A DNA stretch of 64,000 nucleotides. It comes from Actinomycetota bacterium (GTDB taxonomy: Bacteria > Actinomycetota > Actinomycetes > S36-B12 > CAIYMF01). Shown in pieces: positions 16,498 to 64,000 of the stretch (position 1 is its first letter; the number at the start of each line of letters is the position of its first letter). The stretch spans positions 22,387 through 86,386 of the forward strand of contig JAIUOK010000013.1 of the NCBI GenBank assembly GCA_020161245.1, written 5' to 3'. The translations under genes and the position numbers were made by a program. The notes under the pieces were generated by a model that did not search any database, was not told the origin of the DNA, and saw only the letters and a program-made list of their open reading frames with translations.

Positions 16498-16522
16498 CCA
16501 CCCCACGACGAGGAGCCCGACG

Positions 16523-16912: not shown

Positions 16913-16932
16913 GCCGCAGCGCCGGGGGAGCG

Positions 16933-16951
16933 GCGCCCGCTGGGCGGGCGC
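16933..16951. terminator. Hairpin after gcvH
   Basis: A perfect 8-bp all-G/C stem, gcgcccgc/gcgggcgc, with a TGG loop lies 20 bases after the gcvH stop and separates gcvH from the FHA-MerR unit. Confidence 0.65.
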
Positions 16952-16974
16952 GCTGATCCGCTGGAGCCCTTCCC

Positions 16975-17005
16975 GACAACCCTCGACCTGATGTCGAAGG
17001 TTGTC
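16975..17005. promoter_or_regulatory. Predicted MerR-type operator 1 (upstream of -35)
   Basis: Inverted arms gacaaccctcgac and gtcgaaggttgtc pair at 12 of 13 positions around a 5-bp spacer. The core ACCCTCGAC-N5-GTCGAAGGT is shared with 17049 and 19009. It abuts the predicted -35 of the FHA-MerR promoter. Confidence 0.72.
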
Positions 17006-17010
17006 GCCTG

Positions 17011-17040
17011 TTGACCCCCGTCGGCCCAGGTCCGTAGGGT
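17011..17040 (+). promoter_or_regulatory. Predicted promoter of the FHA-MerR unit
   Basis: TTGACC (17011) and TAGGGT (17035) are separated by 18 bases, lying between operators 1 and 2. An 18-bp spacer is near the range at which MerR-family regulators act. Confidence 0.65.
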
Positions 17041-17048
17041 TTTGCCCG

Positions 17049-17071
17049 ACCCTCGACCCAGGATCGAGGGC
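17049..17071. promoter_or_regulatory. Predicted MerR-type operator 2 (downstream of -10)
   Basis: ACCCTCGAC-CCAGG-ATCGAGGGC has an identical left half-site and the same 5-bp spacing as operators 1 and 3. It begins eight bases after the -10, so binding there would repress initiation. Confidence 0.68.
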
Positions 17072-17089
17072 GAGCCAGGAGGTCAGCCC

Positions 17090-17596
17090 ATGAGCCGTCA
17101 GTGCCCCCGGTGCGGCCATCTGGCCGAGGATTCCGACCACTTCTGCGCCTCCTGCGGCGCCGAGCTCGCCCCCCAGCCCGACGCGGCGTTCCAGACCGGC
17201 GTGCTCGGCGTCCGCGTCGCCAGCGAGGGCGACAGCGCTCCGCTGCCCGCGGTCGACGCCACCAGCGTCGGCGACCTGTCCGCCGGCCACGCCGTGCTCG
17301 TCGTCCTGCGCGGGCCGCAGGAGGGCGCCCGGTTCGACCTCGACCCGTCGTCGGGCGCGGTGGTCCTCGGGCGCGCGCCGGAGTCCGACCTCTTCCTCGA
17401 TGACGTCACGGTCTCGCGCCGGCATGCCGAGCTCTCGGCCGTCGACGGCGAGTGGCAGCTGGTCGACCTCGGCAGCCTCAACGGCTCCTACGTCAACCGC
17501 CGCCGCATCGACCGCGCCCAGCTGACCGGCGGCGACGAGGTGCAGATCGGCAAGTACCGCTTCGTCTTCCTCGAGGCCGCGGGCGGCGCGGCATGA
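17090..17596 (+). CDS. garA: FHA domain protein, GarA/OdhI-like, with N-terminal zinc ribbon
   Basis: A 168-residue phosphothreonine-binding regulator. GarA/OdhI proteins bind 2-oxoglutarate dehydrogenase and glutamate enzymes when unphosphorylated and are switched off by Ser/Thr kinases. The C-terminal FHA domain has GRAPESDLFLDDVTVSRRHA and DLGSLNGSYVN. The N-terminus differs from mycobacterial GarA. It has a CPRCG...CASCG zinc ribbon (residues 4-25) and I do not see the classic ETTS phosphorylation motif, so regulation may differ. The start ATG has CCAGGAGG nearby. Its stop overlaps the MerR start. Confidence 0.85.
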   Translation: MSRQCPRCGHLAEDSDHFCASCGAELAPQPDAAFQTGVLGVRVASEGDSAPLPAVDATSVGDLSAGHAVLVVLRGPQEGARFDLDPSSGAVVLGRAPESDLFLDDVTVSRRHAELSAVDGEWQLVDLGSLNGSYVNRRRIDRAQLTGGDEVQIGKYRFVFLEAAGGAA

Positions 17597-18342
17597 GCGC
17601 CACGTCCGCGGCGGCGTCGGCGTCCGGCCGCGGGCTGCTGGGGATCGGCGACGTGCTCTCGGTGCTGCGCCCGGACTTCCCGGACATCACCATCTCCAAG
17701 ATCCGCTTCCTCGAGGGCGAGGGGCTCATCGCCCCGCAGCGCACCGCCAGCGGCTACCGCAAGTTCAGCCACGCCGACGTCGAGCGGCTGCGCTACATCC
17801 TGGCCTGCCAGCGCGACCAGTACCTGCCGCTCAAGGTCATCCGCGAGCACCTCGAGGCCATCGACCGGGGGCTCGAGCCGCCGGCGTCCACCGGCGACGG
17901 CCCGCGCGTGCCGCGGGCGCTGGTCTCGACCGACGGCATGCCCTCCGCCGACGCCTTCCGCCCGTCGCAGGCCGATGTGCGGCTGTCGAAGGGCGAGCTG
18001 CTCGAGGCCAGCGGCCTCGACGCCGCGCTGCTCGACCAGCTCGAGGGCTTCGGGCTGGTGAGCCGTCGCGGCCAGCACTACGACGGCGAGGCGCTCGTCA
18101 TCGCCACGACCGTGGCCGAGATGGCCGCCTTCGGCATCGAGCCGCGCCACCTGCGTACGTTCAAGGTCGCCGCCGACCGCGAGGTCGGTCTCGTCGAGCA
18201 GGTCGTCACCCCGATGCTGCGCCAGCACGACCCCGAGTCGCGCCAGCGCGCCGACGACGCCGTCCGCCAGCTGGCCGCGCTCTCGGTCCGGCTGCACTCG
18301 TCGCTGGTGAAGGCGGGCCTCGCTGCCGAGCTCGGCCGCTAG
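17593..18342 (+). CDS. MerR-family transcriptional regulator (Rv1828-like)
   Basis: A 249-residue protein with an N-terminal MerR winged helix-turn-helix (DITISKIRFLEGEGLI, then TASGYRKFSHADVERLRYIL), a middle linker and a C-terminal helical domain (SRRGQHYDGEALVIATTVAE). It sits in the Rv1828 position, directly after the FHA gene with an ATGA overlap. It is the prime candidate to bind the shared palindromes at 16975, 17049 and 19009. No metal-binding Cys cluster is visible, so it is unlikely to be a classical metal sensor. Confidence 0.88.
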   Translation: MSATSAAASASGRGLLGIGDVLSVLRPDFPDITISKIRFLEGEGLIAPQRTASGYRKFSHADVERLRYILACQRDQYLPLKVIREHLEAIDRGLEPPASTGDGPRVPRALVSTDGMPSADAFRPSQADVRLSKGELLEASGLDAALLDQLEGFGLVSRRGQHYDGEALVIATTVAEMAAFGIEPRHLRTFKVAADREVGLVEQVVTPMLRQHDPESRQRADDAVRQLAALSVRLHSSLVKAGLAAELGR

Positions 18343-18440
18343 CCCGTCGGGTCGCGCGGCCCGCGGCCCGGGTGCGCTCTGAACGGATGCCGACCGCCCG
18401 CCGGGGTCGCGTACCGGCGCTGCGCGGATAGGGTTGCGGC

Positions 18441-18932
18441 ATGCGCCAGATGGACGTCGTGGGTGTCCGCGTCGAGATGCCGTCGAACCAGCCGATCGTG
18501 CTCCTGCGCGAGGTGGACGGCGAGCGCTACCTGCCGATCTGGATCGGCGCGGTGGAGGCCACCGCGATCGCCTTCGCCCAGCAGGGGGTCGTGCCGGCCC
18601 GGCCGCTGACCCACGACCTGCTGCGCGACGTCGTCGCCTCGCTCGGCCACACCCTGGCCGAGGTGCGGATCACCGAGCTCACCGACGGGGTGTTCTTCGC
18701 CGTCCTCGCCTTCGACGGGGGAGTCGAGGTCAGCGCCCGCCCGTCCGATGCCATCGCGCTCGCCCTGCGCACTGGCACGCCGATCTACGGCGCCGAGACG
18801 GTGCTCGAGGCCGCGGGCATCTCGGTGCCCGACGAGCAGGAGGACGAGGTCGAGAAGTTCCGTGCGTTCCTCGACGAGGTGTCGCCGGACGACTTCCTCG
18901 GCGGGAGCGGCGGAGCCGCCGGCCCGGCATAG
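18441..18932 (+). CDS. DUF151 (bifunctional nuclease) family protein
   Basis: A 163-residue protein matching the Rv1829 position. The blocks LPIWIGAVEATAIAFAQQG and RPLTHDLLRDVVASLG, followed by RPSDAIALALRTGTPIY, are the DUF151 signature. Plant members are DNase/RNase enzymes; the bacterial role is unproven. The last ten residues (GGSGGAAGPA) are encoded by the first copy of a 47-bp tandem duplication, so the C-terminus is recently altered or dispensable. The sequence upstream is short (98 bases), with no clear promoter. Confidence 0.88.
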   Translation: MRQMDVVGVRVEMPSNQPIVLLREVDGERYLPIWIGAVEATAIAFAQQGVVPARPLTHDLLRDVVASLGHTLAEVRITELTDGVFFAVLAFDGGVEVSARPSDAIALALRTGTPIYGAETVLEAAGISVPDEQEDEVEKFRAFLDEVSPDDFLGGSGGAAGPA

Positions 18933-42612: not shown

Positions 42613-44679
42613 TCAGCCGCGCGGCTCGTCGGCCAGGCAGGCCAGCACGAGGGCGGGGTCGGCGGCCTCCTGCGCCGCCTGGGCGACCGTGGCCGCCATC
42701 GTCGCCAGCTCGCCCTCCGGCAGCTGGCGTGCCCAGTGCATGGGACCGCCGAGATGGCGGGGGAAGCCGAAGCCGTTCACCATGACCACGTCGACGTCGT
42801 CGATGTGACGGGCCGTCCCGTCTTCCACGGCTCGGCAGCCCTCGACGACCAGGGCGCCCACGGCGCGGCGCACGATCTCGTCCGGACCGATCGGCCGCCT
42901 GCGCAGTCCCTTGCGCGCGGATTCCGCCAGCACGAGCGCGTCCACCAGAGGATCCGCGGTGCGGCGGCCCTTCTCGTCGTAGGCGTAGTAGCCCGCAGAG
43001 GTGCGCCTCCCCAGACGTCCCTGGTCGACGAGCACGTCGGGGATGTCGACGTACCGGGCGGGCAGCCGTCCTTCGCGCCGCAGCCGCTCCCTCAGCGAGT
43101 GCGCGATCTGCAGGCCGGAGAGGTCGGCGACCGCGAACGGGCCCAGCGCGAAGCCGAAGCCCTCGAGGGCGCGGTCGACATCGGCTGGCAGTGCGCCGTC
43201 CTCGATCAGGTACTCGGCATGACGGCGGTAGGCGGCGAAGAGCCGGTTCCCGATGAATCCCTCGCGGTCGCCGGCCAGGACGGGCTGCTTGTCCATGTCC
43301 GCGACGAGCCTGAGGACCGTCGAGACGGTCTCGGGGGCGGTGAGGGCCGTGGGGACGACCTCCACGAGGCGCATGACGTCGGCAGGGTTGAAGAAGTGCA
43401 GGCCGATGAGCGCCGCGGGGTCGGGCAGGGCTGCGGCCAGGCTCGCGACCCCGAGATAGGAGGTGTTGGTCACCAGCACGGCGGACGGCGCCTGGCGCTG
43501 GGCCTCCACCAGGACGCCGGCCTTGATCGCCGCATCCTCGAACACCGCCTCGACGACGAGCTCGGCCCCCGCGAGATCCTCCATGCGCCCGGACGAGGAG
43601 AGCCCGGAGGCTGCCCGTTCGCCGGTCTCGGGCTCGAGCAGGCCTCTGGCCACCGCTCTCTCGAGCGACTGCCGAGCACGGTCGCGGCCCCGGGCTGCTT
43701 GCTCGGTGTCGACGTCGATGAGCATCACCTCGGCCCCGGACCGGGCGAGCGCCGCGGCGATGCCGGAGCCCATCGCGCCGGCGCCGATGACGGCAGTGCG
43801 ACGCAGCGCGGTCGGAGACGGCCGGATGCCGCTGCGCCGGGCCGCGGCACGCTCGGCGAAGAAGATGTGCCGCAGGGCTGCGGCCTCCGCACCGACGCGC
43901 AGCCGGTCGAAGCGCGCCCGTTCCTCGGCGAGGGCAGCTCCGACGGGCACGGATCCGGCCATCCGCACCAGCTCCACGGCGTCGGCCGCGTTGGGCCGCT
44001 GCTTCGAGGTGCGCATGCCGTCGTCCACGGCTGCGGCGAAGAGGGCCTCGTCGACGGGAGGCACGGGCAGGCCGGACGTGGGCCGCTTGCTGCAACGGCA
44101 CGCGGCCTCGACGGCAGCGCCGAGCAGGTCGGCCTCGGTCGTCTCGTCCAGCAGCCCGAGCGCCAGGCCTTCGGCTCCCGAGATGCGGCGGCCCGTGAGG
44201 ATCAGCCGGATCGCGGCGACCGGCCCGACCAGGCGGGGCAGCCGCTGCGTGCCGCCGGCCCCGGGGACCATCCCGAGCGAGACCGCGGGCATGCCCAGCC
44301 GCACACCCGGTGAGCCGATGCGGTAGTCGCAGCCCAGCGCGAGCTCGAGCCCGCCGCCGAGGGCGAAGCCGTCGAGCGCGGCCACCACCGGCAGGGGGCA
44401 GGCCTCGATGGCGGCGATCACGGTCGGGAGCAGCGGCTCGGGCACGGGCCCGTCGAACTCGGTGATGTCCGAACCGGAGACGAACGTCCCCCGCGCACCG
44501 ATGATGACGCCGGCGACGAGCGCCGGGTCGTCCGCGAGCCGACGGATGCCGTCGAGCAGGCCCGCGCGCACCGCCGCGGAACTGGCGTTGACCGGAGGGT
44601 TGTCGATCGTGAGCACGAGGACGTCGCCCCTGGAGGCGGGGCGTACGTCGATGCGCACGGCCGGGACCGGCGAGCTCAT
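42613..44679 (-). CDS. Bifunctional enoyl-CoA hydratase / 3-hydroxyacyl-CoA dehydrogenase (FadB/FadJ-like)
   Basis: A 688-residue fusion. The N-terminal crotonase domain (residues 10-190) has the oxyanion region FVSGSDITEF and FALGGGLELALG. The NAD-binding HCDH domain starts at VIGAGAMGSGIA (residues 298-309), with catalytic IGLHFFNPADVM. Glu112 (first catalytic Glu) is present, but the second expected Glu is Ala132 (GMPAVSLG, usually GLPExxLG). Hydratase activity may be weak or changed to isomerase. The ATG at 44679 has GGGAGGAGG, and the start overlaps the upstream gene's stop by four bases. Confidence 0.9.
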   Translation of the reverse strand: MSSPVPAVRIDVRPASRGDVLVLTIDNPPVNASSAAVRAGLLDGIRRLADDPALVAGVIIGARGTFVSGSDITEFDGPVPEPLLPTVIAAIEACPLPVVAALDGFALGGGLELALGCDYRIGSPGVRLGMPAVSLGMVPGAGGTQRLPRLVGPVAAIRLILTGRRISGAEGLALGLLDETTEADLLGAAVEAACRCSKRPTSGLPVPPVDEALFAAAVDDGMRTSKQRPNAADAVELVRMAGSVPVGAALAEERARFDRLRVGAEAAALRHIFFAERAAARRSGIRPSPTALRRTAVIGAGAMGSGIAAALARSGAEVMLIDVDTEQAARGRDRARQSLERAVARGLLEPETGERAASGLSSSGRMEDLAGAELVVEAVFEDAAIKAGVLVEAQRQAPSAVLVTNTSYLGVASLAAALPDPAALIGLHFFNPADVMRLVEVVPTALTAPETVSTVLRLVADMDKQPVLAGDREGFIGNRLFAAYRRHAEYLIEDGALPADVDRALEGFGFALGPFAVADLSGLQIAHSLRERLRREGRLPARYVDIPDVLVDQGRLGRRTSAGYYAYDEKGRRTADPLVDALVLAESARKGLRRRPIGPDEIVRRAVGALVVEGCRAVEDGTARHIDDVDVVMVNGFGFPRHLGGPMHWARQLPEGELATMAATVAQAAQEAADPALVLACLADEPRG

Positions 44680-46796
44680 GCCTCCTCCCGCTCCACCACG
44701 CGCACGAGGGCGTCGACAGCGACGGCCCCGCGGCCCTCTGGCAGGACGATGACCGGGTTGGCCTCGGCCTCGACGACGGCGCCGTCCGTCACGACGCCCA
44801 CGCGCGAGACTGCGACGATCACCTCGGCGAGCGCAGCCACGTCGCCCCTCGGCAGGCCGCGGTATCCCTGGACCGCCTTGAGCGAGACGACGTCGTCGAT
44901 CATGTCCTGCGCGGTGGCGAGGTCGACGGGGGCTGTGCGCACGCTGCGGTCGTGATGGAGCTCGGCCAGGACGCCCCCGGCCGCCAGGACGACGACCGGC
45001 CCTGCCAGCTCGTCGTGGCGGAAGCCGACCAGCACCTCGCCCACGCCCTCGACCATCTCCTGGACGAGCACGCGGTCGAGACCGACGTGGGGCGCCGACG
45101 TCGAGACCTGAGCGACGATGCTCGAGATGGCAGCGGCGAGACCGTCCCGGTCGCGGACGCCGAGGACCACTCCGCCGATGTCGGACTTGTGCGGCGCGTC
45201 GGGCGACAGGATCTTCACAGCGGCGGGCACGGCGACCGGCATCTCGGGCGAGGGCATCGCGGTGCTCACCACTGCGTACGGCGCATGGGCGACGCCGACG
45301 GAGGCGAGCAGCCGGTAGGACTCGTCCTCGTCCAGTACGCGGCTGCGGCCGCCGGGATCCGGGTGGACTGCGGGAGAGCCCGTCGGCCTGCGACGGCCGA
45401 ACACGGCGACGAGCGCATCGGCGCACGACTCCGGCGTGGCGAAGGCGGCCACGCCGCTGCGGCGCAGCAGCGCGAGCGCCTCGGGGGCCTCGGGCATGAC
45501 GAAGGCCGCCAGCGGGCGGGCCGTGCCCGCGCTGTCGGCGATCGGCTTCACCGCGAGGTCGGGATGGAAGCGGGCCGACGACCCGGGCACGGCCACGACG
45601 GCGTCGAACTCGGGCGCGGTGGTCAGGACGTCGAGCGCGGCCTTCATCACCTCGTAGCGGGCCCCGGCGAGGGTGAGGTCGACCAGCGCCCCCGGGCCGG
45701 CATCGATCCCGTGCTCGGCCAGCCGGAGCAGCGTCTCGGCGGACGGCGGCGTCGGCACCGCCCCGTACGTGGCGAGGCAGTCGACCATCATCGCGCCGCC
45801 ACCGCCGGTGGTGGAGACGACGGCGACGCGGGGCTGGCGCAGCGGCCGCTCGGCGAGGGCGGTGGCGCGCGCCAGGTGCTGCGCCTCGAGCAGGGCCTCG
45901 AAGTGCGATACCCGGGCGATCCCGAGGGACTGCAGGAGCGCGCTCGCCACGGTGTCATCGCCAGCGAGCGCTCCGGTGTGGGACACCGCGAGGTCGGCCG
46001 CCGCAGCGGACCGGCCGAGCTTGTAGGCGACGACCGGCTTGCCCCGCTCCGCTGCGGCGTGCGCGAACTCCCGCAGGTCGTCCACCCCGGACAGGTTCTC
46101 GAGGAACAGCGCGTAGCTGGCGACGCCGGGGTCCTCCAGGGAGGCCAGGCACAGCTCGCCGAGCGAGAGGTCGAGCTCGCCACCGGTGGAGACGAGCGCC
46201 CTGAAGCCGATCCCCATGGACTTCCCGCGGGAGAGCAGCGCGCCGATCGCACTGCCCGACTGGGAGGCGACGAACACGTCGCCGGCGGGAAGATCGGGCT
46301 CGACCAGAGCGGCGTTGGCCGTCAGCAGGAAGCCGTCGGCGAGGTTGACCACGCCGAGGCTGCTCGGACCGAGCACCCGGGTCGTCGACGACTCGACGGC
46401 CTGCCGGAGCCGGCGCACGCGGTCTCGGCCGGCAGGGTCGGACTCCGTGAACCCGTCCGCCATGAGGGTCACGACCGGCACTCCGATCTGTGCGCACTCC
46501 TCGAGGGCGTCGAGCGCCGGTTCCGCGGTGGTCACGACGAAGACGTGGTCCGGTACCTCGGGAAGGTCGCGGACCCGTGCGTAGGACCGCTGTCCGAGAA
46601 CCGTCGGCCGGGCCGGGTTCACGGGGTGGACCCGCCCGCCCCAGCCGGACGCCAGCAGGTACTCCAGCGGGCGGGCCGTCGTCTTGCCCGGGGTGCCGGA
46701 GGCGCCCACGATCGCCACGCTTCTCGGGCGTAGCAGCGCCTCGGACAGCGCCGGCCCTGGAGCGCCGTCCCGGCCCGCGGTCCGTGCCGCGGTCAC
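44676..46796 (-). CDS. ADP-forming acyl-CoA synthetase (ACD family)
   Basis: A 706-residue fused alpha-beta NDP-forming acyl-CoA ligase. It has the CoA-binding domain VAIVGASGTPGKTTARPLEY, the CoA-ligase region with VSHTGALAGDD (region of the phosphohistidine) and the C-terminal ATP-grasp domain (AVKILSPDAPHKSDIGGVVLG). It activates a carboxylic acid to acyl-CoA, or runs in reverse. The GTG at 46796 overlaps the acyl-CoA dehydrogenase stop by four bases. An upstream extension exists in frame but is shadow of that gene. Confidence 0.88.
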   Translation of the reverse strand: MTAARTAGRDGAPGPALSEALLRPRSVAIVGASGTPGKTTARPLEYLLASGWGGRVHPVNPARPTVLGQRSYARVRDLPEVPDHVFVVTTAEPALDALEECAQIGVPVVTLMADGFTESDPAGRDRVRRLRQAVESSTTRVLGPSSLGVVNLADGFLLTANAALVEPDLPAGDVFVASQSGSAIGALLSRGKSMGIGFRALVSTGGELDLSLGELCLASLEDPGVASYALFLENLSGVDDLREFAHAAAERGKPVVAYKLGRSAAAADLAVSHTGALAGDDTVASALLQSLGIARVSHFEALLEAQHLARATALAERPLRQPRVAVVSTTGGGGAMMVDCLATYGAVPTPPSAETLLRLAEHGIDAGPGALVDLTLAGARYEVMKAALDVLTTAPEFDAVVAVPGSSARFHPDLAVKPIADSAGTARPLAAFVMPEAPEALALLRRSGVAAFATPESCADALVAVFGRRRPTGSPAVHPDPGGRSRVLDEDESYRLLASVGVAHAPYAVVSTAMPSPEMPVAVPAAVKILSPDAPHKSDIGGVVLGVRDRDGLAAAISSIVAQVSTSAPHVGLDRVLVQEMVEGVGEVLVGFRHDELAGPVVVLAAGGVLAELHHDRSVRTAPVDLATAQDMIDDVVSLKAVQGYRGLPRGDVAALAEVIVAVSRVGVVTDGAVVEAEANPVIVLPEGRGAVAVDALVRVVEREEA

Positions 46797-47965
46797 GTCG
46801 CGCTCGTCGGGGCCGGGCGCGGCGGGCGCTGGTCGAAGCGCCGGCCGAACACCGTCTCGGCGATGCGGTTCTTGAGGATCTCGGTGGAACCGCCCGCGAT
46901 CATCCAGCCGCGCGTGCGCCGGAAGCAGTACTCCACCAGCGACTCCTCGCTGAAGCCGGTGCCTCCCATGGCCTGAACGGCGACGTTCGCGGCGCCGTAG
47001 CCGGCCTGGTTGGCGGCGTACTTGGCGACGGCAGTCGAGTGGGCCGAGGGGAGCCCGTCCTCGCCCTCCAGCGCCGCTCGGTGCAGCAGCAGCTGGGCGG
47101 AGTCCAGAGCGACGGCCTGCTCGGCGAACATCCACTGCAGTCCCTGGAACTCCGCCAGCGGACGCCCGAACTGCTCGCGGGTGTTGAGGTGCGCGACGGC
47201 GGCGTCGAAGGCGTACCTGCCGACGGCGATGGAGCGCGACGCGTTGCCGAGCCGCTCGACGTTGAAGCCCGCGATCTGCTTCTTGAAGCCGCCCTCTCCG
47301 AGCAGCACCTGCGAGTCAGGGATGAAGCAGTCCTCGAAGTAGAGCTGGCTCCACTGCTCCCCGTTCATGAACGCGGACGGCGTCCCCACCGTGAGACCGG
47401 GCGTGCCCCGGTCGACCAGCACCGAGCCGATCCCCGACGTGCCGGGGCCGAACCGCAGGTACACGAGGAAGACGGCGGCCTCCGGGCTGTGCGTCCCGAA
47501 GACCTTGGTGCCGTTGATGGCCCACCCGCCGTCCTTGCGGGTCGCGGTGGTCCTGAGCTCCGTGACCGCGGATCCCGCCTCGGGCTCGCTCATGCTCAGA
47601 CCGATGACCGACCTTCCCCCGAGCAGGTCCGGCAGGTAGCGCTCGCGCTGCTCGTCGGTCGCGTACTCGGCGAAGGTGCGGATCGCGCCGAAGTTCCCCG
47701 CCTGGACGACGTCGGCGCTGCGGGGGCAGTACTTGGCGACGGCCTGGATCGCCGTCACGGCCGCCAGCAGCGACGCGCCCTGGCCGCCTTTGTCCTCGGG
47801 GATGGTGAGCCCGAGCAGGCCCTGGTCCGCCATGGCCCGAGCCACGTCCCAGGGGTACGCGTGCGAGTGGGCACGGGCCAGCGCACCGTCTGCCAGGTTG
47901 CGGCGTGCGAACGACTCGACGGAGTCGCGGAAGGCGACGATCTCGTCGGGGAGGCGGAAGTCCAT
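46793..47965 (-). CDS. Acyl-CoA dehydrogenase
   Basis: A 390-residue FAD enzyme introducing the alpha-beta double bond. It has SMSEPEAGSAVTELRTTATR, YAFDAAVAHLNTREQFGRPLAEFQGLQWM (shown as two overlapping blocks in the family) and QAMGGTGFSEESLVE. The C-terminal motif is WMIAGGSTEILKNRIAE. Here the residue that is the catalytic Glu in the medium-chain type (YEGT) is Gly, so the base may come from another position, as in several branched-chain or cyclic acyl-CoA dehydrogenases. It is operonic with its neighbours. Confidence 0.9.
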   Translation of the reverse strand: MDFRLPDEIVAFRDSVESFARRNLADGALARAHSHAYPWDVARAMADQGLLGLTIPEDKGGQGASLLAAVTAIQAVAKYCPRSADVVQAGNFGAIRTFAEYATDEQRERYLPDLLGGRSVIGLSMSEPEAGSAVTELRTTATRKDGGWAINGTKVFGTHSPEAAVFLVYLRFGPGTSGIGSVLVDRGTPGLTVGTPSAFMNGEQWSQLYFEDCFIPDSQVLLGEGGFKKQIAGFNVERLGNASRSIAVGRYAFDAAVAHLNTREQFGRPLAEFQGLQWMFAEQAVALDSAQLLLHRAALEGEDGLPSAHSTAVAKYAANQAGYGAANVAVQAMGGTGFSEESLVEYCFRRTRGWMIAGGSTEILKNRIAETVFGRRFDQRPPRPAPTSAT

Positions 47966-48026
47966 GGTCGGTGCTCCGGTCGGGTGCGGCTGGGCTCGGG
48001 GGAGTGGGGGCGGCGCGCTGTGCGGG

Positions 48027-48905
48027 TCAGCCGCGGCCGTCGATGATCCGGACCATGACCGGGTAGTACTCGTCGACGTACCCGGCGTCGCGCGTCTGCT
48101 CGAGCAGCGCCATGGTCTGCTTGGCGGCCCTGAGGTCCAGGCCGGCCGCGTCGGCGAGTGCGAGCGCCAGGCCCAGGTCCTTGATCGCGTACTTGGTCGG
48201 GAAGGTCTGCGTCGGGAACTCGTCGGGCACCAGGGTCGCCATGGCCGACCGGCGCAGCTGGAAGCTGTCGGCCGAGCCGAGCTGCAGCGTCTCGAACAGC
48301 AGCCTGCCGTCGACTCCTGAGGCGCGGCCGACGGCCATCGCTTCCGCAAGCGCGTTGACGGTCTGGAACACCACCATGTTGTTGAGGATCTTGATCACCT
48401 GCCCGTTGCCCAGGCCGCCTGCGTGCACGATGTCGGAGCCCATGCAGGCCAGGAGGGGCTGCAGCTCGCCGAACATGTCGTCGGAGGCCCCGACCGTGAT
48501 GAGCAGCGTGCCGTCCTGGGCGGCCTGGCGCAGTCGCGCCACAGGGGCATCGACGAGCGTGATCCCGTGGGCGGCCAGCCTCTCGCCGAGCTCGCGCGTG
48601 CGGGCGACGTCGCTCGTGCTCATGTCGACGATGACTGCCGGGCGCTCGTCTGCGGCGAGGATCTCGTCGCAGACCGTCTCCACCTGCACGATGCTGGGCA
48701 GCGAGAGGAAGACGATCTCGGCACGGGCAGCCACCTCGGCCACGTCGCGCGCACGCGCGGCCCCCGCAGCCACGGCCGAGTCGAGCGCCGTCTCTACGGG
48801 GTCGTAGGCGACGACCGGCAGACCCGATCGGCGCGTCAGGTTCGCGCACATGGGGCCGCCCATGACGCCGAGACCGATGAATCCGAGGGCTTCGCTGCTT
48901 GTCAC
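48027..48905 (-). CDS. 3-hydroxyisobutyrate dehydrogenase-type oxidoreductase
   Basis: A 292-residue beta-hydroxyacid dehydrogenase. The NAD(P) motif is GFIGLGVMGGPMCANL, the substrate loop is DAPVARLRQAAQDGTL (the usual S-G-G is altered) and the catalytic Lys lies in GNGQVIKILNNMVV. It may convert 3-hydroxyisobutyrate to methylmalonate semialdehyde or reduce a related semialdehyde. It lies between the acyl-CoA dehydrogenase and the aldehyde dehydrogenase. Confidence 0.87.
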   Translation of the reverse strand: MTSSEALGFIGLGVMGGPMCANLTRRSGLPVVAYDPVETALDSAVAAGAARARDVAEVAARAEIVFLSLPSIVQVETVCDEILAADERPAVIVDMSTSDVARTRELGERLAAHGITLVDAPVARLRQAAQDGTLLITVGASDDMFGELQPLLACMGSDIVHAGGLGNGQVIKILNNMVVFQTVNALAEAMAVGRASGVDGRLLFETLQLGSADSFQLRRSAMATLVPDEFPTQTFPTKYAIKDLGLALALADAAGLDLRAAKQTMALLEQTRDAGYVDEYYPVMVRIIDGRG

Positions 48906-48954
48906 GTGGGGTCCTTGTCTGCCGGGAGGGAGATGCCCCTCCGGTGCCCGGGGG

Positions 48955-50433
48955 TCAGTGGAGGTCGACGATGACGCTCTTGACCTGGCTGTAGTGGAGG
49001 AGCGCGTCCATGCCCTTCTCCCGCCCGATCCCGCTCTGCTTGTAGCCGCCGAACGGCACCTCCACCCCGGCGCCGGTGTAGCGGTTGATCTGCACCTGCC
49101 CCGCCTGCAGCGCGGCCGCGAGGCGGTGCGCGCGCCCGAGATCCGCGGTGAAGACCCCCGCCGAGAGGCCGTAGCTCGTGTCGTTGGCGATGCGGACGGC
49201 CTCGTCGAGGTCGTCGAACGCGAGAACGGACTGAACGGGGCCGAACACCTCGGTGCGCGCGATGGGCATGTCCTGGGTGACGTCTGCGAGCAACGTAGGC
49301 GCGACGAACCAGCCCGAGGACAGGTCGCCGTCGGTGCCGCCCGTGACGACCCGCGCGCCGTCGGCGCGGGCGTCCTCGACGAGGCCGAGGACGCGCTGGC
49401 GCTGCTGCTCGCTCACGAGAGGTCCCAGGTCCGGGTCGTCCAGGCCGGGGCCCAGGCGCAGACCGCTGAGCCGCTCCGCCACCAGCTCGACGAACGTCTC
49501 GTGCACAGCCCGGTCGACCAGCAGCCGTGTCGTGGCGAAGCACGACTGGCCCGAGTTGCGCACGACGGCCAGCGCGCCTGCTGCAGCAGCCCTCGAGAGG
49601 TCGGCGTCCGCGCACACGATGGTGGGGGACTTGCCGCCGAGCTCGAGGTTGCAGCCGACGATCCGGTCGGCCGCGGCGCGGCCCACGAGCCTGCCCGTCG
49701 CCACCGATCCGGTGAAGGCGATGTGCTGGACGAGCTCATGCCGGACGAGGGACTCGCCGACGCCGCCCGGCCCCAGGACCACGTTGCAGAGCCCGGGGGG
49801 CAGGCCGGCCTCCGTCATGAGCACGGCGGCGAGGGCGGTCGTCAGCGGTGTGATCTCGGACGGCTTGACCACGACCGCGTTGCCGGCCGCCAGGCTCGGT
49901 GCCACGCCGCGCATCATCTGGCTGAGGGGCGCGTTCCACGGCGTGATGTGCGCGACGACGCCGTACGGCTCGCGCACCGTGTAGGCGAACGTCCCGAGCG
50001 GCTGGCTGAGCGTCTGCCCGGCCACCTTGTCGCACGCACCGGCGTAGTACTCGAGGTAGCGCGCCGTCACGTCCACATCCGCGCGGGCCTGGGACAGGGG
50101 CTTGCCCGTATCGAGCGATTCCAGGCGGGCGAGCGCGGAGGCGTTGGTACGGAACGCATCGGCGCATCGCAGCAGGATGCGGCCGCGGTCGGCTGGCGAG
50201 ATCCGGGCCCAGTCGCCCTGCCAGGCTTCCTGGCCGGACCTCACCGCGGCGTCGACGATCTCGTCGGAGGACTCCTCGAACTGCCCGATGATCTCCCCGC
50301 TGCTCGGGTCGGCCACCTCGTGCACCTGGCCGCCTGCGCCGGGGGACCACCATCCGTCGATGACCGCGGTGAGGGTCCTCGGGATTCCGGTGGCCGCGAG
50401 CTCGCCGTGCTCCTGGAGCTGGGACCCCGCCAT
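48955..50433 (-). CDS. NAD(P)-dependent aldehyde dehydrogenase
   Basis: A 492-residue ALDH. It has ITPWNAPLSQMMRGVAPSLA for cofactor binding, LELGGKSPTIV with the general base Glu and NSGQSCFATTRLLVD with the catalytic Cys. EVFGPVQSVLAFDDLDEAV follows. ATG at 50433 gives normal length; the 26 extra residues of the longer frame are unlikely. It is the first gene of the leftward operon and is divergent from the GntR regulator across 148 bases. Confidence 0.92.
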   Translation of the reverse strand: MAGSQLQEHGELAATGIPRTLTAVIDGWWSPGAGGQVHEVADPSSGEIIGQFEESSDEIVDAAVRSGQEAWQGDWARISPADRGRILLRCADAFRTNASALARLESLDTGKPLSQARADVDVTARYLEYYAGACDKVAGQTLSQPLGTFAYTVREPYGVVAHITPWNAPLSQMMRGVAPSLAAGNAVVVKPSEITPLTTALAAVLMTEAGLPPGLCNVVLGPGGVGESLVRHELVQHIAFTGSVATGRLVGRAAADRIVGCNLELGGKSPTIVCADADLSRAAAAGALAVVRNSGQSCFATTRLLVDRAVHETFVELVAERLSGLRLGPGLDDPDLGPLVSEQQRQRVLGLVEDARADGARVVTGGTDGDLSSGWFVAPTLLADVTQDMPIARTEVFGPVQSVLAFDDLDEAVRIANDTSYGLSAGVFTADLGRAHRLAAALQAGQVQINRYTGAGVEVPFGGYKQSGIGREKGMDALLHYSQVKSVIVDLH

Positions 50434-50581
50434 GCCGCGCTGTTCCTCTCCCGAGCGCCCGGCCGGCCCGGGGATGCGCGGAAAGGTATCAAGGTAGGGA
50501 CGTTCGAGCAATCATCGTGCCGACAGGCCGGCCGAGTATCGTGGCTGTGCGCCCGGGCGGGCGCCGTGCTCGAGGAGGGCG

Positions 50582-51382: not shown

Positions 51383-51412
51383 GAAGGCCCCGACCTGCAG
51401 GTCGGGGCCTTC
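51383..51412 (+). terminator. Terminator after the GntR gene
   Basis: A perfect 30-base palindrome (gaaggccccgacctg / caggtcggggccttc) lies 21 bases after the stop and is followed by tgctgtgt. Confidence 0.85.
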
Positions 51413-51847: not shown

Positions 51848-54571
51848 GTGGACGAGCGCGGGCTTCCCGACGCCCTGTTCGAGCTCGCCGACTGCCTCAA
51901 GCACGTCACCCGGGACTTCGAGGGAACGGTCCGCAGGCTTATGGCGAACCCGTCCTCAGGCACCGCCCGGGAGCAGCGGTGCCTGCGTGACCTGCAGACG
52001 TCCCTGCCCGAGGCCGAATGGGAGCGGCTTCCCTCCCTGCTGCGCACGGAGCTGGATCGGGGCCGCGGCCCGATCCGCCCCCGTCCAGGCGACCGGAAGA
52101 GGCCCGCCGATCCCCGCCCCGATCAGTCCCCGCGGCAGCGGGTCGAGGTTGCAGCGCGCCGCGAGGAGGCGCGGCGCCGACTCGCGGAATGCCTCCAGAA
52201 CGACTACCTCGCCGGCCCCCAAATCTTCGCCGATGAGCTCGCGCAGTGGTTGTCGGACGACGACTTCGACGCAGCGCGTCGGTCAGTCGTGGAGGACTGG
52301 GCTGCTCGCCGAGGCCACTGGTCGCCTGACGCGGCGCAGGCAGCGGCCGCCTCGCCGACCGGTGGCCACGTCCTGGTCACAGCCCGAGCCGGGAGCGGGA
52401 AGACCGCAGTCCTGGTGAACAGGGCCGCCTTCCTGATCGAGCACTGCGGTGTGCCCGGCGATCAGATGCTGCTTCTCGCCTTCAACCGGCGTGCCGCCGA
52501 AGAGATGGAGCAGCGCATCTCCCTCCTGACCAGCAAGCCTCCTCCCCACGTGTCGACCTTCCACTCCCTCGCCTATGCGGTCGTGCAGCCTGACGAGCGC
52601 CTCGTGTACGACGAGCCGGAGGACCCGAGCCCCGTCCTGAGCCGCCTGGTGCAGCAGGCGATCGACGAGGCCTGCCGGGAAGAAGCGTTCCAGCGTCGGG
52701 TGCGCTCGGTGATGATGCAGTTCTTCCGCGCCGACTTGGATTCCGACCAGTCCCGCTCGCTCGGCGCGAGCGCCCAGCAGAACCTGGCCATGCGGCGGAG
52801 CCTGCGTCAGCTCAGCCTGGGCGGAGATCGGGTCAAGTCGCACGGCGAGAAGGTGATCGCCAACTTCCTGTTCGAGCGCGGCATTGCCTACGAGTACGAG
52901 CGGTCCGTCCGATGGGGGAGCACGGTCTACCGCCCCGACTTCACCATCGATCTGCCCGGCGGCGGGACCGTCGTCCTCGAGTACTTCGGGCTCGCCGGCG
53001 ATAGCGCCTACGACTCGAAACGCGCCGAGAAACGTGCTTTCTGGAACAGGACTCGCACACCGCTGGTCGAGCTGGATCGCCATGAGCTCGCCGGCGACCC
53101 GCCACGTGTCGAGGCCGTGCTTCGCCGCAAGCTGGAACGCGTCATGCCGGTGCCGGCCAGGCAGTCCGACGAGGAGATCTGGGCCCGCTGCCGCGATCAC
53201 TCGATCCTGTCGATCTCGCGCAGCCTGCGCGGCTTCATCACGCGAGCCCGGCAACTCGGCCTAGCACCGCAGGAGGTCAGCGAACTTGAGATCCCGCCAG
53301 GCTTGTCCGGGTCGCCGTTCCTCCGTGAGTACGTCCGCCTCGGCGCGGATACCTACCAGGCCTACCTCGACCTGCTGGCTGCGCAGTCATCGGAGGACTT
53401 CAGCGGGCTGGTCCAGCGCGCCACGGCCCGCGTCCGTGCAGGATCGACAACCTTCAACCGAAGAGGACGGTCAGGTGATCTCGCCCGTATCCGGTTCATC
53501 CTCGTCGACGAGTTCCAGGACTTCTCCACCCAGTTCCACCAGTTGGTCGACGCGGTCACGCAGGCTGCCCCCAGGGCAGAGGTCTTCGCCGTCGGCGACG
53601 ACTGGCAAGCCATCAACGGCTTCGCGGGGTCCGACCTCACGTTCTTCGAACGCTTCGGCGACTACTACCCGGCGGCGCAGGCCCGGCACCTGACGACGAA
53701 CTACCGATCAACCCGGCCGGTGGTCGAAGCTGGCAATCACCTCATGGTCCGGCTCGGCATGCCTGCGGAAGCGCACAACGGCGGTGGGACGCTGATCGGC
53801 TGGACCGACACCCAAGACGTCGACCTCGGGGTCTCCGACCTTGCCCGTCTGGCCGGGAAGCCCGGTCAGCGCCGACTCGCAGCCATCGAGCGCATCGTCC
53901 AGCGCTCCCTCGGTCAGGGCGACACGGTGCACCTGCTGACCCGGCGGACCCCGGACGACGGACTCCTTCGCCTGCTGCGCCAGACCTTCCCCGACGCGCG
54001 GGACCGCATCACCGCATCGACGGTGCACAAGTACAAGGGCCGCGAGTCCGATGCGGTCGTGCTCCTGGACGCCGATGGGAACAGCTTCCCCCTCATCCAT
54101 CCCGAGTGGGCGTTCCAGTCGATCTTCGGGGATTCGCTCGCAGATATCGTCGATGCCGAGCGACGGCTCCTGTATGTCGCCCTGACCCGCGCCCGCCGGT
54201 ACCTGCACCTCCTGGTCGACAGCCGGAACCCGAGCCCCTTCCTCACTGGCATCCGCAGCTCCCCGTGGTTCCAGGAGGTCCCTTGGAGCACCCTCGCTCC
54301 CCTCGACTCCGCAGCACAGGCGCCCGGGGCGACAAGGGTCGTGGTGAGCGGAGCGACGTTCGCCGCACGTGAGGCCCTGAAGGCGGCCAAGTTCCGGTGG
54401 GAACCCGAGACCCGGACCTGGTGGCGGCACACGTCTGGATCGCTTGCAGACTGGCGAGCGGAGCCGTGGGCCGCGACCTCCGCCGATCTCGAAGTCTCGA
54501 TCTCCCACGACGGAACCACTGTCCGCTTCCACAACCGCGATCGCGGTCGCTGGCAAGAGGTTCGGAACTGA
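51848..54571 (+). CDS. UvrD/helicase IV-like SF1A helicase with inserted nuclease-like domain
   Basis: A 907-residue DNA helicase. Walker A is TARAGSGKTAV (residues 178-188), motif II is VDEFQDF (553-559), motif III is AVGDDWQAING and motif VI is RRLLYVALTRARRYL. Between motifs Ia/Ib and II, about residues 330-412, sits a nuclease-like insert: SHGEKVIANFLFERGI (Glu334), YRPDFTIDLP (Asp364) and VVLEYFG (Glu378). That is the PD-(D/E)xK pattern common in helicase-IV-like proteins of defence loci, although the usual Lys is not immediately after Glu378. The C-terminus (ALKAAKFRWEPETRTWWRH) resembles DUF5710-like modules. The N-terminal 165 residues are unassigned. GTG start. Confidence 0.87.
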   Translation: MDERGLPDALFELADCLKHVTRDFEGTVRRLMANPSSGTAREQRCLRDLQTSLPEAEWERLPSLLRTELDRGRGPIRPRPGDRKRPADPRPDQSPRQRVEVAARREEARRRLAECLQNDYLAGPQIFADELAQWLSDDDFDAARRSVVEDWAARRGHWSPDAAQAAAASPTGGHVLVTARAGSGKTAVLVNRAAFLIEHCGVPGDQMLLLAFNRRAAEEMEQRISLLTSKPPPHVSTFHSLAYAVVQPDERLVYDEPEDPSPVLSRLVQQAIDEACREEAFQRRVRSVMMQFFRADLDSDQSRSLGASAQQNLAMRRSLRQLSLGGDRVKSHGEKVIANFLFERGIAYEYERSVRWGSTVYRPDFTIDLPGGGTVVLEYFGLAGDSAYDSKRAEKRAFWNRTRTPLVELDRHELAGDPPRVEAVLRRKLERVMPVPARQSDEEIWARCRDHSILSISRSLRGFITRARQLGLAPQEVSELEIPPGLSGSPFLREYVRLGADTYQAYLDLLAAQSSEDFSGLVQRATARVRAGSTTFNRRGRSGDLARIRFILVDEFQDFSTQFHQLVDAVTQAAPRAEVFAVGDDWQAINGFAGSDLTFFERFGDYYPAAQARHLTTNYRSTRPVVEAGNHLMVRLGMPAEAHNGGGTLIGWTDTQDVDLGVSDLARLAGKPGQRRLAAIERIVQRSLGQGDTVHLLTRRTPDDGLLRLLRQTFPDARDRITASTVHKYKGRESDAVVLLDADGNSFPLIHPEWAFQSIFGDSLADIVDAERRLLYVALTRARRYLHLLVDSRNPSPFLTGIRSSPWFQEVPWSTLAPLDSAAQAPGATRVVVSGATFAAREALKAAKFRWEPETRTWWRHTSGSLADWRAEPWAATSADLEVSISHDGTTVRFHNRDRGRWQEVRN

Positions 54572-54957
54572 GAGGCGATTCCTGCGCCGTCGACGCCTTA
54601 GGCCGCCACGTGCCCGGAGGCGGGTTCGCGGACGCCCGGCTGCACATAAGGCCTGCTTCCGACGCCTCGCATGTGCGTCCCGAAGATCCGCGGCCCCCAA
54701 GCAGTCGCACCGGAGGGTCTCGTGTGATCGAGGTGAACAGCCATGTCGGCGGCCCCAGCCGGTGCCGTTGTCCGAGGGGAGACGCCGTCACCGGGGAGCC
54801 GCTGACACAGGTGCGCGTCGCAGCACCGGGACTCATCCCTTCGGCACGCTTCGGGCCGCTTGCTGCGGCAAGATCACGTGCTGAACGATCTTCGACGGAT
54901 CAGGAGCTGTAGCGGGACCCCGGGACTGCGGTGGCTCGCTTCCGAGAGGGGGAGCGG
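54572..54957. other. Intergenic region between the two rightward helicases
   Basis: No gene is supported. A frame from 54724 to 54912 is open but lacks a clear ribosome binding site. A weak hairpin (aagatc...gatctt) lies at about 54869-54891. The next gene has its own ribosome binding site (gagagggggagcgg). It could contain a promoter. Confidence 0.45.
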
Positions 54958-61986: not shown

Positions 61987-64000
61987 GGCGCCTGTACCTC
62001 CAGGACGCCGTAGCAGAGGGGCTCGGCCAGAAGATCCGCGCGCGACACCGCCTGCAGCAGCGCCGCCTCCCGGCGCTGGAAGTCGATGTCGGCGTTGCGC
62101 AGCTGCCCTTCACGCATCCGCCTGATGCGGTCCTCGTTCGCGCCGGCGAGCTGCTCGGTGATCAGCGAGGTACGCGCAGTGTGCGTCGTCCGCAGCGATG
62201 CCAACCGCGCATCGAGCGACACCTGCGTCGCGAGCACATGCTCCGCCCGGGCGTCGGCCCACGCGGCGTAGTGCCGCCGGTCGATGCTGTCCCGGTCGCT
62301 CTCACCCATCGTCGCTGTGGCGTTGAAGTCGGTCGCCTGGCCCAGTAGGCTGGTCACCACCTCGTCGACGGGGTCAGCAGCGGAGAACACACGGATAGAG
62401 AAGTCGTCGCGAAGCCCCAGGTGCGTCCAGCCGAAGATCGCGAAGGGGTAGCGACCGGGCTCCAGGGCGTCCGAGCGGGCGAGCAGCGACGTGGTCGGCA
62501 CTCCCTCGAGCCGTGCAGCCTGGGCCGCCGCTCGCACCAGCGGGTGGGCCGGGCCGAGCACCTCGATCTCCGGGTCGTCTTCGGCCAGTGATGCGGTGAC
62601 GACCAGGCGCCGCGTCGGTTCGGTCCCCTTGAGCCAGCGCAGCCAGCGTGAGTCGTTGTGGTTGGTCTCCCGGATGTCCTCCGCGGCCCGAAGCAGGAGC
62701 TCCCGGGCGGTCTGGGACGGGCGTAGCACGGCGATCCGGTCCTCGGCCAAGGCGATCTGCCTGCCCGGGTCGATCGTGTTGAGATAGCCGCGCACGAGAT
62801 GGGCGATGCTCGTGGGGGTCAGCCAGGGTGAGGTTGCCTCGTGGACGGCCGTGTCGTCGGTTCCCTTGACGGCGAGCCCGAACAGGTGGGCCTGTTCGTC
62901 TTCGAGCTTCTGCAGCTCCTGCAGGCGTCCCAGCTTGTTGTCGGCCAGTTGTCGGAGGCGGTCGTCCCTCTCAGCCTGGCTGAGGCTGAGGTTGTCGGCG
63001 ATGCTGCGCATCTCGCGAGTGAGCTCGCCGAGGATCGCTTCGCTCCCGCCCAGGGCGCTCTGGAAGACGCCGATACGGTACAGGCAGCGGTGGTAGATGG
63101 AGGCGTCGACGGTCCCGGGCGTGATCAGGTTGATGATCGCCACGGTCTCGCTGCGCTGTCCCCGCCGGTCGATGCGGCCGATGCGCTGCTCCACGCGCAT
63201 GGGGTTCCACGGCAGGTCGTAGTTCACCAGCGCATCGCAGAACTGGTAGTCCAGGCCCTCTGTCCCCACCTCGGAGGAGAGCAGCAGGTCAAGAGCCCGG
63301 GGATCCTCTCGCGGGAGCTTGAACCGTCGCCGCAGTTCGCGCCTGTCGGCATCGGGCACGTTGCCATGCACGACGCCTAGTCGGAGCTCGTCCGTGGCCA
63401 GCCGCCGCTGGAGGTAGGCCAGGGTGTGCCGGAAGGTGCTGAACAGGAGGAGCTTGTTGTTCTCCATCGTCTGCTTCTGCTCGACGATGGTGCGCAGCGC
63501 GTCGAACTTGGGGTCATCGTCGCCGAGGGCGTGCGTCGCTGCGACTACGGCGTCGATCTCGGTGCGGAAGAGCTCGAGCAGCTCGGTTCCGGGCTGGGTC
63601 TCATCGTCGCCGTCCGCTTCGCTGATCTCTTCGCTCGTCAGACGTCGCTGCAGGATGTCGTTCACGAGAGGGCCTAGCCCGTTGATGCAGCTCGCGGCCT
63701 GGCGCTGCAGCGTGGAGATGAGGAACTCGACCGGTTGGCCGGGGGCCTGCTGACGAGCCATGCGCCGGCAGAGGTCCACCAGGTCGTCGTAGACCATCCG
63801 TTGATCGTCGGAGAACTCGACTTCGACGGTCTCCGGCTTCCGCGTGGTGAAGTTGCCGATGTCCCGCCGTCGGGTGCGGTTGATGAAGCCCGAGAAGGTG
63901 TTGAGGCTGTCGAGAGTGCGGACGACCTGAACCCGGTTCTCGTCGCTGCTGGCGTCGTCCAGCAGATCCCGTACCTGCTGGGCGCGAGGGTCGAGGCTGA
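61983..64000 (-). CDS. SNF2/RapA-like helicase (5' part outside window)
   Basis: The frame is open from 61983 to the right edge of the window, so at least 672 residues of the C-terminal part are visible. The segment reading NRTRRRDIGNFTTRKPETVEV (split FINRTRRRDIGNF / TTRKPETVEVEF) precedes the helicase C domain, with LLLFSTFRHTLAYL, DLLLSSEVGTEGLDYQF and PWNPMRVEQRIGRIDRRGQ (motif VI). The N-terminal ATPase lobe is not in the window. The C-terminal 300 residues (LFGLAVKGTDD onward) are a typical extension of this family and may bind partner proteins. It is the upstream gene of the sacsin-like ATPase. Confidence 0.88.
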   Translation of the reverse strand, partial: SLDPRAQQVRDLLDDASSDENRVQVVRTLDSLNTFSGFINRTRRRDIGNFTTRKPETVEVEFSDDQRMVYDDLVDLCRRMARQQAPGQPVEFLISTLQRQAASCINGLGPLVNDILQRRLTSEEISEADGDDETQPGTELLELFRTEIDAVVAATHALGDDDPKFDALRTIVEQKQTMENNKLLLFSTFRHTLAYLQRRLATDELRLGVVHGNVPDADRRELRRRFKLPREDPRALDLLLSSEVGTEGLDYQFCDALVNYDLPWNPMRVEQRIGRIDRRGQRSETVAIINLITPGTVDASIYHRCLYRIGVFQSALGGSEAILGELTREMRSIADNLSLSQAERDDRLRQLADNKLGRLQELQKLEDEQAHLFGLAVKGTDDTAVHEATSPWLTPTSIAHLVRGYLNTIDPGRQIALAEDRIAVLRPSQTARELLLRAAEDIRETNHNDSRWLRWLKGTEPTRRLVVTASLAEDDPEIEVLGPAHPLVRAAAQAARLEGVPTTSLLARSDALEPGRYPFAIFGWTHLGLRDDFSIRVFSAADPVDEVVTSLLGQATDFNATATMGESDRDSIDRRHYAAWADARAEHVLATQVSLDARLASLRTTHTARTSLITEQLAGANEDRIRRMREGQLRNADIDFQRREAALLQAVSRADLLAEPLCYGVLEVQAP

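Follow-up and report, generated by a model that had tools for sequence, protein, structure and literature searches.

The right-hand 12 kb of the window, that is, of the whole 64,000-nucleotide stretch of DNA that was analysed, carry rightward helicase genes facing a leftward SNF2–sacsin operon, and the assembly contig terminates exactly at the window end. The following features were recognized (+, rightward strand; −, leftward strand), and all the genes named in the preliminary description were found to be present as it had described them.

51383..51412, no strand: 30-base perfect palindrome, 3' of a GntR/UTRA gene (match to its own reverse complement)
51848..54571, +: UvrD/Rep-like SF1 helicase, 907 aa; both UvrD helicase domains, N- and C-terminal, are present (Pfam UvrD-helicase, 9e-36)
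52781-53053, +: PD-(D/E)XK-like insert in the UvrD-like protein, residues ∼312-402 (conserved insert; PADLOC PDC-S68 match)
54958..57753, +: RadD-like SF2 helicase with a C-terminal SprT/YgjP-like metallopeptidase domain (Pfam ResIII, 1.1e-23)
57750..58295, +: zinc-tail protein, 181 aa, with a conserved C-x2-C...H-x2-C end
58422..58721, −: small ORF, 99 aa, a doubtful gene (no family match)
58771..61986, −: sacsin-like GHKL ATPase, 1071 aa (Pfam SACS, 3.4e-17; PDB sacsin, 3.4e-14)
58987-59118, −: C-terminal McrA-like treble clef of the sacsin-like protein, without the HNH histidines (EcoKMcrA 6ghc, 0.0034; alignment)
61609-61917, −: N-terminal ATPase of the sacsin-like protein (SACS domain)
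61983..63998, −: SNF2 helicase, C-terminal 671 aa only, incomplete at the contig end (Pfam Helicase_C, 2.7e-18)

The genes for the UvrD-like helicase, the helicase–SprT fusion and the sacsin-like ATPase were each absent from all 16 other genomes of the family, and the sacsin-like gene was missing from all 165 other genomes of the order as well, on which grounds core-genome status was rejected. Judged by these comparisons the 12 kb is accessory DNA, as had been proposed in calling it non-core and of defence type, and the palindrome at 51383..51412 is its left edge. The GC content of the stretch (0.691) was lower than that of the left flank (0.735). In samples of the phylum, the helicase–SprT and sacsin-like genes were found in their own genome only, among 396 genomes for each gene; no more than two candidates per genome were scored, so that some copies may have been missed. 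A DNA search with the left flank yielded only scattered short matches in relatives and no common neighbourhood, and neither promoter or terminator patterns nor Rfam families were detected in the stretches scanned.

The start of the helicase–SprT fusion was placed at the ATG at 54958 in preference to the GTG at 54931, as in its database copy (P0003, 931 aa). RadD was the best solved structure for this protein, both by sequence search and by Foldseek; RadD (YejH), a DNA repair helicase, is thus the nearest solved relative of its SF2 core, to which the fusion adds N-terminal and middle regions and the metallopeptidase-like domain. The HExxH...H of this domain lies at 57580-57618, and HExxH...GH is kept without exception in the 22 aligned relatives. 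Eight of ten C-terminal pieces were SprT-like and seven of the ten YgjP-like (E up to 1), the window's own piece scoring under the Pfam gathering values for both (15.9 vs 25.6 bits for SprT-like and 17.8 vs 26 for YgjP-like). Matches of the metallopeptidase end in a PDB sequence search were weak (E 0.46 and above), and structure searches of whole models gave matches dominated by the helicase and ATPase parts. Generic helicase motifs were also picked up when genome contigs were scanned with the helicase alignment, and of 80 loci only the eight whose match reached the metallopeptidase end were kept (L005-L011 and L081), the other 72 being dropped; in one of the eight, L008, the relative lies within BREX genes. 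The best 80 loci in viral contigs matched the helicase core only, and patterns from the metallopeptidase end detected no relative there; among plasmids, none of the 97 matching records covered 80% of the fusion and none matched at 1e-40.

The start of the zinc-tail gene (ATG at 57750) lies inside the stop of the helicase–SprT gene in an ATGA overlap; given this overlap and two relatives that start at the same methionine, it is a real gene. A total of three members of its family turned up in the database, the window's own included. No NCBIfam match was obtained for the protein and no Pfam match for its 78% relative, and relatives were found neither in viral contigs nor in plasmids. The small ORF at 58422-58721 is doubtful as a gene: Pfam, PADLOC and NCBIfam gave no match, tblastn gave none in the loci compared, and its coding bias was weak (third-position GC 0.79).

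On the leftward strand, the sacsin-like gene overlaps the end of the SNF2 gene (61983) by four bases (GTGA). Its sacsin ATP-binding domain scored above the curated cut-offs of both Pfam SACS (63.5 vs 32.8 bits) and NCBIfam P_loop_sacsin (98.4 vs 50). At its other end the spacing, the four Cys and the Asn of the EcoKMcrA HNH domain (6ghc) are kept, but in every one of the 26 rows aligned (one a duplicate) the McrA histidines that we take to be catalytic are replaced by other residues. The four Cys were invariant across the 21 rows of one alignment, and one of them is His in L189; phmmer with this C-terminus alone returned weak, unrelated matches only. A search of its own assembly with a complete relative did not turn up the missing N-terminal part of the SNF2 protein, where the first lobe of the helicase and a HEPN domain, if there is one, would lie. 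HEPN_Swt1 (PF18731) with R-x4-H was present in five of five SNF2 proteins from viral contigs and absent from all three from rhizobial plasmids, and hence present in five of the eight relatives with an N-terminus; an RNase output is therefore not universal, as three of the eight lack HEPN. On the tree the window's SNF2 groups with the HEPN-bearing SNF2 of L187 (support 96/97), and HEPN_Swt1 is predicted on its missing N-terminus. In a published account, Swt1-type HEPN domains are described together with SNF2-DUF3883 in restriction operons and fused to an AAA ATPase (PMC3710099); the operons given there are alike in joining a Swt1-type HEPN with an SNF2 helicase and differ in that HEPN is here fused to SNF2, which is paired with sacsin.

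Nine loci with relatives of this SNF2 of at least 36% identity were examined, from three plasmids, five viral contigs and one genome contig. In eight of these a SACS gene lay directly downstream of SNF2 on the same strand, the partner being a close relative of the window's sacsin in six and, in L212 and L215, a distant SACS protein whose match lies mostly in the ATPase end. Since the gene order and the close packing are found again in plasmids of proteobacteria, in viral contigs and in another genome of the same class, SNF2 and the sacsin-like gene are, on comparative grounds, a recurring two-gene unit. More distant SNF2 proteins (28-31%; L196, L216 and L009) had no sacsin gene nearby. The five viral-contig SNF2s were the top five of 80 loci, the other 75 including a sacsin-like match in L232 only, and for five of the seven sacsin matches in viral contigs SNF2 gave no match in the vicinity. 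Defence-type company of the pair was noted in three of the nine loci, where it was preceded by HsdS, HsdR, YgjP and HARE-Mrr (L212) or lay near an AbiEi-type protein (L187) or an ABC-three component system (L103, a Rhizobium plasmid).

With somewhat more confidence than doubt, we read the locus as an accessory stretch in which a recurring SNF2–sacsin unit, probably serving antivirus defence, stands beside an apparently separate unit of a helicase and a predicted protease. The SNF2–sacsin pair itself is likely to be an undescribed antivirus defence; no description of it or of the helicase–SprT fusion was found in the open-licence literature, judged from titles or the openings of abstracts. In the proposed mechanism, the SNF2 motor would engage invading DNA and travel along it, the sacsin/Hsp90-like ATPase would work as a switch powered by ATP, and the HNH fold of the sacsin protein, lacking the histidines, may serve for contact and not for cutting. 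RNA cleavage by the Swt1-type HEPN domain, predicted for the window's copy, would be the output, leading to abortive infection. In the neighbouring unit, the RadD-like motor may pull DNA past the SprT-like protease, which would cleave DNA-bound proteins with the help of the coupled zinc-tail protein. In humans, sacsin is a chaperone-type protein linked to disease, and we know of no job for the bacterial proteins that carry its ATPase domain; a pair of a sacsin-like ATPase and a DNA motor, with HEPN in five of eight cases, would offer such ATPases a role in immunity that can be tested, and the helicase–SprT fusion would connect defence islands with the proteolysis of proteins bound to DNA.

The same genes could also be accessory DNA-repair enzymes, namely a RadD-like helicase with a crosslink protease, a UvrD-nuclease and an SNF2 remodeller with a chaperone. 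RadD is after all the nearest solved relative of the helicase–SprT fusion, and crosslinks between DNA and protein are the target of SprT-type proteases. We consider a role in repair instead of defence unlikely, because the patchy presence of the genes, the plasmid carriage of the pair, its RNase-type HEPN domains and, in four loci, neighbours of the restriction, BREX, AbiEi or ABC-three component kind are more in keeping with defence.

Whether the stretch holds one system or several was judged from a recount of neighbourhoods at one threshold (E up to 1e-3), in which some flanks were short (the contigs of L005 and L007 being ∼4 kb). In the fetched flanks, no UvrD, helicase–SprT or zinc-tail match accompanied any of the nine SNF2–sacsin loci, no UvrD, zinc-tail or sacsin match any of the eight helicase–SprT relatives, and no helicase–SprT, zinc-tail or sacsin match any of the four UvrD relatives. 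The earlier proposal that the six genes form one recurring set did not hold up against this, and a six-gene system was rejected as the leading view because the neighbourhoods of each part elsewhere lack the other parts; going by gene neighbourhoods, the 12 kb most likely does not constitute a single system of six genes. Co-occurrence was seen for SNF2 and sacsin (eight of nine loci), and by the test that the preliminary description itself had set, the two halves of the stretch proved mostly unlinked elsewhere, with one apparent exception: a zinc-tail relative (78%, P0244) and a sacsin relative (84%, P0124) appear to share one 30,439-base metagenome contig (JGI data), which speaks against the halves being fully independent. 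The L009 locus, where an SNF2-like gene faces the helicase–SprT relative, was rejected as a parallel case, since this SNF2-like gene falls outside the pair's SNF2 family on the tree.

These apparent contig mates, each the best relative of its protein, would suit a single immune system with two arms, in which the convergent helicase–SprT/zinc-tail and SNF2–sacsin operons travel as a block, as would the presence of only a doubtful small ORF between the operons and of a YgjP-like metallopeptidase two genes before the HEPN-SNF2–sacsin pair in L212. Such a system is nevertheless quite improbable, since the left-hand genes accompany none of the nine SNF2–sacsin loci, and sacsin or zinc-tail genes none of the eight helicase–SprT loci, within the fetched flanks; no helicase–SprT relative lies on a 30,439-base contig among the 120 matches listed out of 220; and third-position GC differs (0.93 vs 0.85-0.88). 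Still more doubtful is the mechanism that could be drawn for it, in which a HEPN-armed, sacsin/Hsp90-gated SNF2 would kill by RNA cleavage and the convergent helicase–protease operon would strip protein shields off invading DNA; if true, a crosslink-type protease would be joined to a chaperone-gated RNase within one defence.

The statement that the set matches no listed named system was upheld, the nearest PADLOC matches being partial (GajB with the core of UvrD, DrmD with SNF2 and TmtA with the N-terminus of sacsin). DISARM DrmD was the best PADLOC (4.7e-69) and NCBIfam match of the window's SNF2 part, at 162.6 bits vs an equivalog cut-off of 610 for a protein incomplete at the contig end; here, in contrast, the partner is a sacsin-like ATPase, and five SNF2 relatives carry an N-terminal HEPN. 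The TmtA model of the Tiamat system (1.2e-46) shares the sacsin/GHKL ATPase end (residues 26-413), but the match covers 388 of 1071 residues, and the present protein forms a two-gene unit with SNF2 and has a McrA-like HNH end without histidines. Up to the contig edge, no separate DrmA, DrmB, DrmC or methylase gene appeared in the PADLOC rows shown for seven window ORFs (one of them, at 57734-58318 in the zinc-tail region, in the wrong frame), and no row for PglZ or BrxC of BREX in the window ORFs scanned. It is very improbable that the SNF2–sacsin pair represents diverged components of DISARM or Tiamat and not a unit of its own, as the DrmD and TmtA matches and a DrmA-model match on SNF2 (9.9e-23) are outweighed by the low DrmD score of the incomplete protein, the partial TmtA coverage and the lack, among the rows displayed for the right end of the window, of a separate gene for DrmA, DrmB or DrmC.

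The UvrD-like protein shares its helicase core with GajB of Gabija and differs from it by the nuclease-like insert; a GajA-type partner appeared in no PADLOC row, whether for the neighbouring helicase–SprT gene or for the GntR gene upstream. The insert is common to two relatives (Anabaena and a Tenderia plasmid), with the motifs GEK.IA.FLFE, PDF and E. Its residues E...PD...E/K, which we take to be the PD-(D/E)XK nuclease motif, are conserved in the three sequences, and no Pfam nuclease match was obtained. The gap of 386 bases between the UvrD and helicase–SprT genes implies that the two are not translationally coupled, and the UvrD–nuclease gene probably makes up a third cargo of the stretch, independent of the other two.

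In the region between position 51848 and the end of the window the following genes were identified, in agreement with the preliminary description:

from 51848, forward strand: UvrD-like helicase, upstream of the helicase–SprT gene
within 51848–64000, forward strand: SF2 helicase with a metallopeptidase-like tail (helicase–SprT)
within 51848–64000, forward strand: zinc-tail protein of 181 aa, coupled to the helicase–SprT gene
within 51848–64000, reverse strand: SNF2 helicase, then sacsin-like ATPase

The window is part of assembly contig 84 and ends where this contig stops, and therefore the SNF2 gene is incomplete. A search of the window's own genome with a complete relative recovered the known C-terminal part plus a weak helicase match at another place, but not the missing N-terminus. 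To the left of the island lie genes of the acyl-CoA, enoyl-CoA and aldehyde dehydrogenase types (42613–50511, catabolic) and a GntR/UTRA regulator; six of ten left-side ORFs had no Pfam match, some of these six being likely wrong-frame.

Of 17 family genomes (the own and 16 others, 10 of these in the same genus), only the own gave a match for helicase–SprT, for UvrD or for sacsin. Among 166 genomes of the order, with up to four candidates scored in each, the sacsin profile detected the own genome alone; among 394 of the class sample (two candidates scored in each), it detected a single other genome. In the phylum samples (two scored each), helicase–SprT and sacsin were each detected in 1 of 396 genomes, the own genome both times. 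The island has a GC content of 0.691, the stretch on its left one of 0.735. At third positions GC is 0.85–0.88 in UvrD, sacsin and SNF2 versus 0.92–0.95 in four flanking genes, and 0.93 in helicase–SprT and 0.88 in zinc-tail; this mixture suggests cargo that differs in age or origin.

The most interesting content of the island is the SNF2–sacsin pair, of which the titles, abstract starts and some passages of the open-licence literature searched held no description. Among the matches listed (120 of 322), sacsin relatives are mostly 1,030 to 1,120 aa long. Eleven records of the plasmid collection matched sacsin, three of them (L102–L104, rhizobial plasmids) over at least 98% of the protein and all three with an SNF2-type helicase gene directly upstream; the remaining eight matched at most 36% of it, and context was compared in the three long ones. 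Likewise, of seven sacsin matches in viral contigs two, in L187 and L189, were long and directly preceded by SNF2; the other five, mainly to the N-terminal part, had no SNF2 match nearby. A viral-contig search by SNF2 gave 80 loci, the five best (L187, L189, L212, L213 and L215) being relatives across ∼640 residues or more. In L212 and L215 a SACS-domain gene, distant from the window's sacsin (24–35% over parts), lies directly downstream, and in L213 the strand opposite to SNF2 bears a sacsin-like C-terminal stretch; one of the 75 weaker loci, L232, had a sacsin-like match. In the sole other sacsin relative found in the class sample (L294), an SNF2 end is joined to sacsin. In this contig (G590 contig 261, 913–4042), sacsin occupies two reading frames, the break lying near residue 160, and the cut-off SNF2 end immediately precedes it.

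Altogether, a sacsin-domain gene lies directly downstream on the same strand in eight of nine SNF2 relatives with at least 36% identity, six of the eight being close relatives of the window's sacsin, and none lies near the more distant SNF2s (28–31% identity; L196, L216, L009). At seven loci, with the gene starts of L187 and L212 set mechanically, the two genes either overlap, by at most ∼30 bases, or stand up to two bases apart; those of the window overlap by GTGA.

Pfam HEPN_Swt1 was detected at the SNF2 N-terminus of all five best viral loci, though only in part for L213, where the gene start is missing. All five have an R-x4-H motif that reads R[ND]xWAH; HEPN families are tabulated with Rx4-6H (PMC3710099). 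Because the tree groups the window's SNF2 with the HEPN-bearing L187 (support 96/97), its missing part is predicted to be likely to carry this domain too. HEPN_Swt1 was absent from the three plasmid SNF2s by alignment and motif search (and by Pfam scan of L102), which are preceded by a gene of 176–184 aa without Pfam match in the two copies scanned. This conserved gene opens the rhizobial operons (L102, 8226–8780; L103, 8235–8765; L104, 8239–8769) and, placed where others have HEPN, might serve as an effector in its stead, or as a regulator.

The ATPase boxes of sacsin are invariant in the 21-sequence family alignment, and the protein as modelled (pLDDT 79.8) is similar in structure to Hsp90-type, sacsin SR1 and MutL ATPases. 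The C-terminus matched the EcoKMcrA HNH domain (E 0.0034); its four zinc cysteines are invariant in the alignment, one being His in L189, and none of 26 rows aligned has a His at the McrA histidine positions, which include the presumed catalytic ones.

Neighbour families were scanned for L212, L187, L103 and one gene after the Ensifer pair. The pair is preceded in L212 by HsdS, DUF3644, HsdR, a YgjP-like metallopeptidase and a HARE-HTH/Mrr protein, in L187 directly by an AbiEi-type protein, and in L103 (Rhizobium bangladeshense plasmid) by an ABC-three component system. Defence-type settings at three of nine loci would link the pair to defence through guilt by association, which is no proof; the defence-type reading of the preliminary description is plausible, function being something we infer throughout. 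In L102 (Ensifer plasmid, 15093–18482), the gene that begins 11 bases past sacsin encodes a TM0106-type RecB-like nuclease-helicase and is a possible fourth operon gene. Downstream of the pair in L189 (13191–22816), an opposite-strand block of genes opens, by eye, with a Vsr-like protein, and a DNA-methylase-like piece comes after it.

The proposal of one new six-gene system did not hold, as nine SNF2–sacsin, eight helicase–SprT and four UvrD loci mostly occur without the other parts in the flanks compared. No UvrD, helicase–SprT or zinc-tail match (E up to 1e-3) was present in the fetched flanks of the nine SNF2–sacsin loci. That the helicase–SprT/zinc-tail and SNF2–sacsin halves nevertheless form one system is improbable. 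This reading is retained mainly because the same longest contig, 30,439 bases from JGI, is given for P0244 (best zinc-tail relative, 78%) and P0124 (best sacsin relative, 84%), which hence very likely share it. Among the matches listed (120 of 220) no helicase–SprT relative has a contig of that length, candidates being limited to copies of at least 0.55 of the length, which leaves out shorter ones cut by the contig edge.

RadD is the nearest solved structure to the SF2 core of helicase–SprT, by sequence and Foldseek. All 22 family members aligned carry HExxH and a third His, and the C-terminal pieces gave weak matches to SprT-like (8/10) and YgjP-like (7/10) Pfam families. Three members of the zinc-tail family are known, the window's among them; they share the starting Met and a C-x2-C…H-x2-C ending. 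Eight helicase–SprT relatives had no UvrD, zinc-tail or sacsin match nearby (flanks short in L005 and L007), and an SNF2 of another family lies near that of L009. In L008 (Pseudonocardia lacus) the relative lies among PDC-S37, BrxHI, PglZ and BrxC genes. Its presence in Pseudonocardia is patchy, since 61 other genomes of the genus gave no match at E 1e-50, yet two more species carry relatives among the protein matches listed. Two similar clusters in one Deltaproteobacterium genome (L010, L011) each comprise a helicase–SprT-like gene, then a 448 or 509 aa gene of unknown type, and on the opposite strand a large gene that has the same end in both clusters; in L010 this gene is helicase-like. A 4.3 kb contig under a Bifidobacterium breve MAG (L005) encodes a relative with 52% identity; this bin label looks doubtful.

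UvrD looks like a solitary cargo gene. Its relatives in L194, L195, L209 and L210 were not accompanied by any helicase–SprT, zinc-tail or sacsin match; a 202-residue SNF2-like match lies near that of L195, and an annotated tyrosine recombinase neighbours that of an Anabaena plasmid. In viral contig L193, 74 residues encoded at 3546–3767 match the window's UvrD in its nuclease-like insert (E 8e-5) and lie immediately ahead of a sacsin-domain gene.
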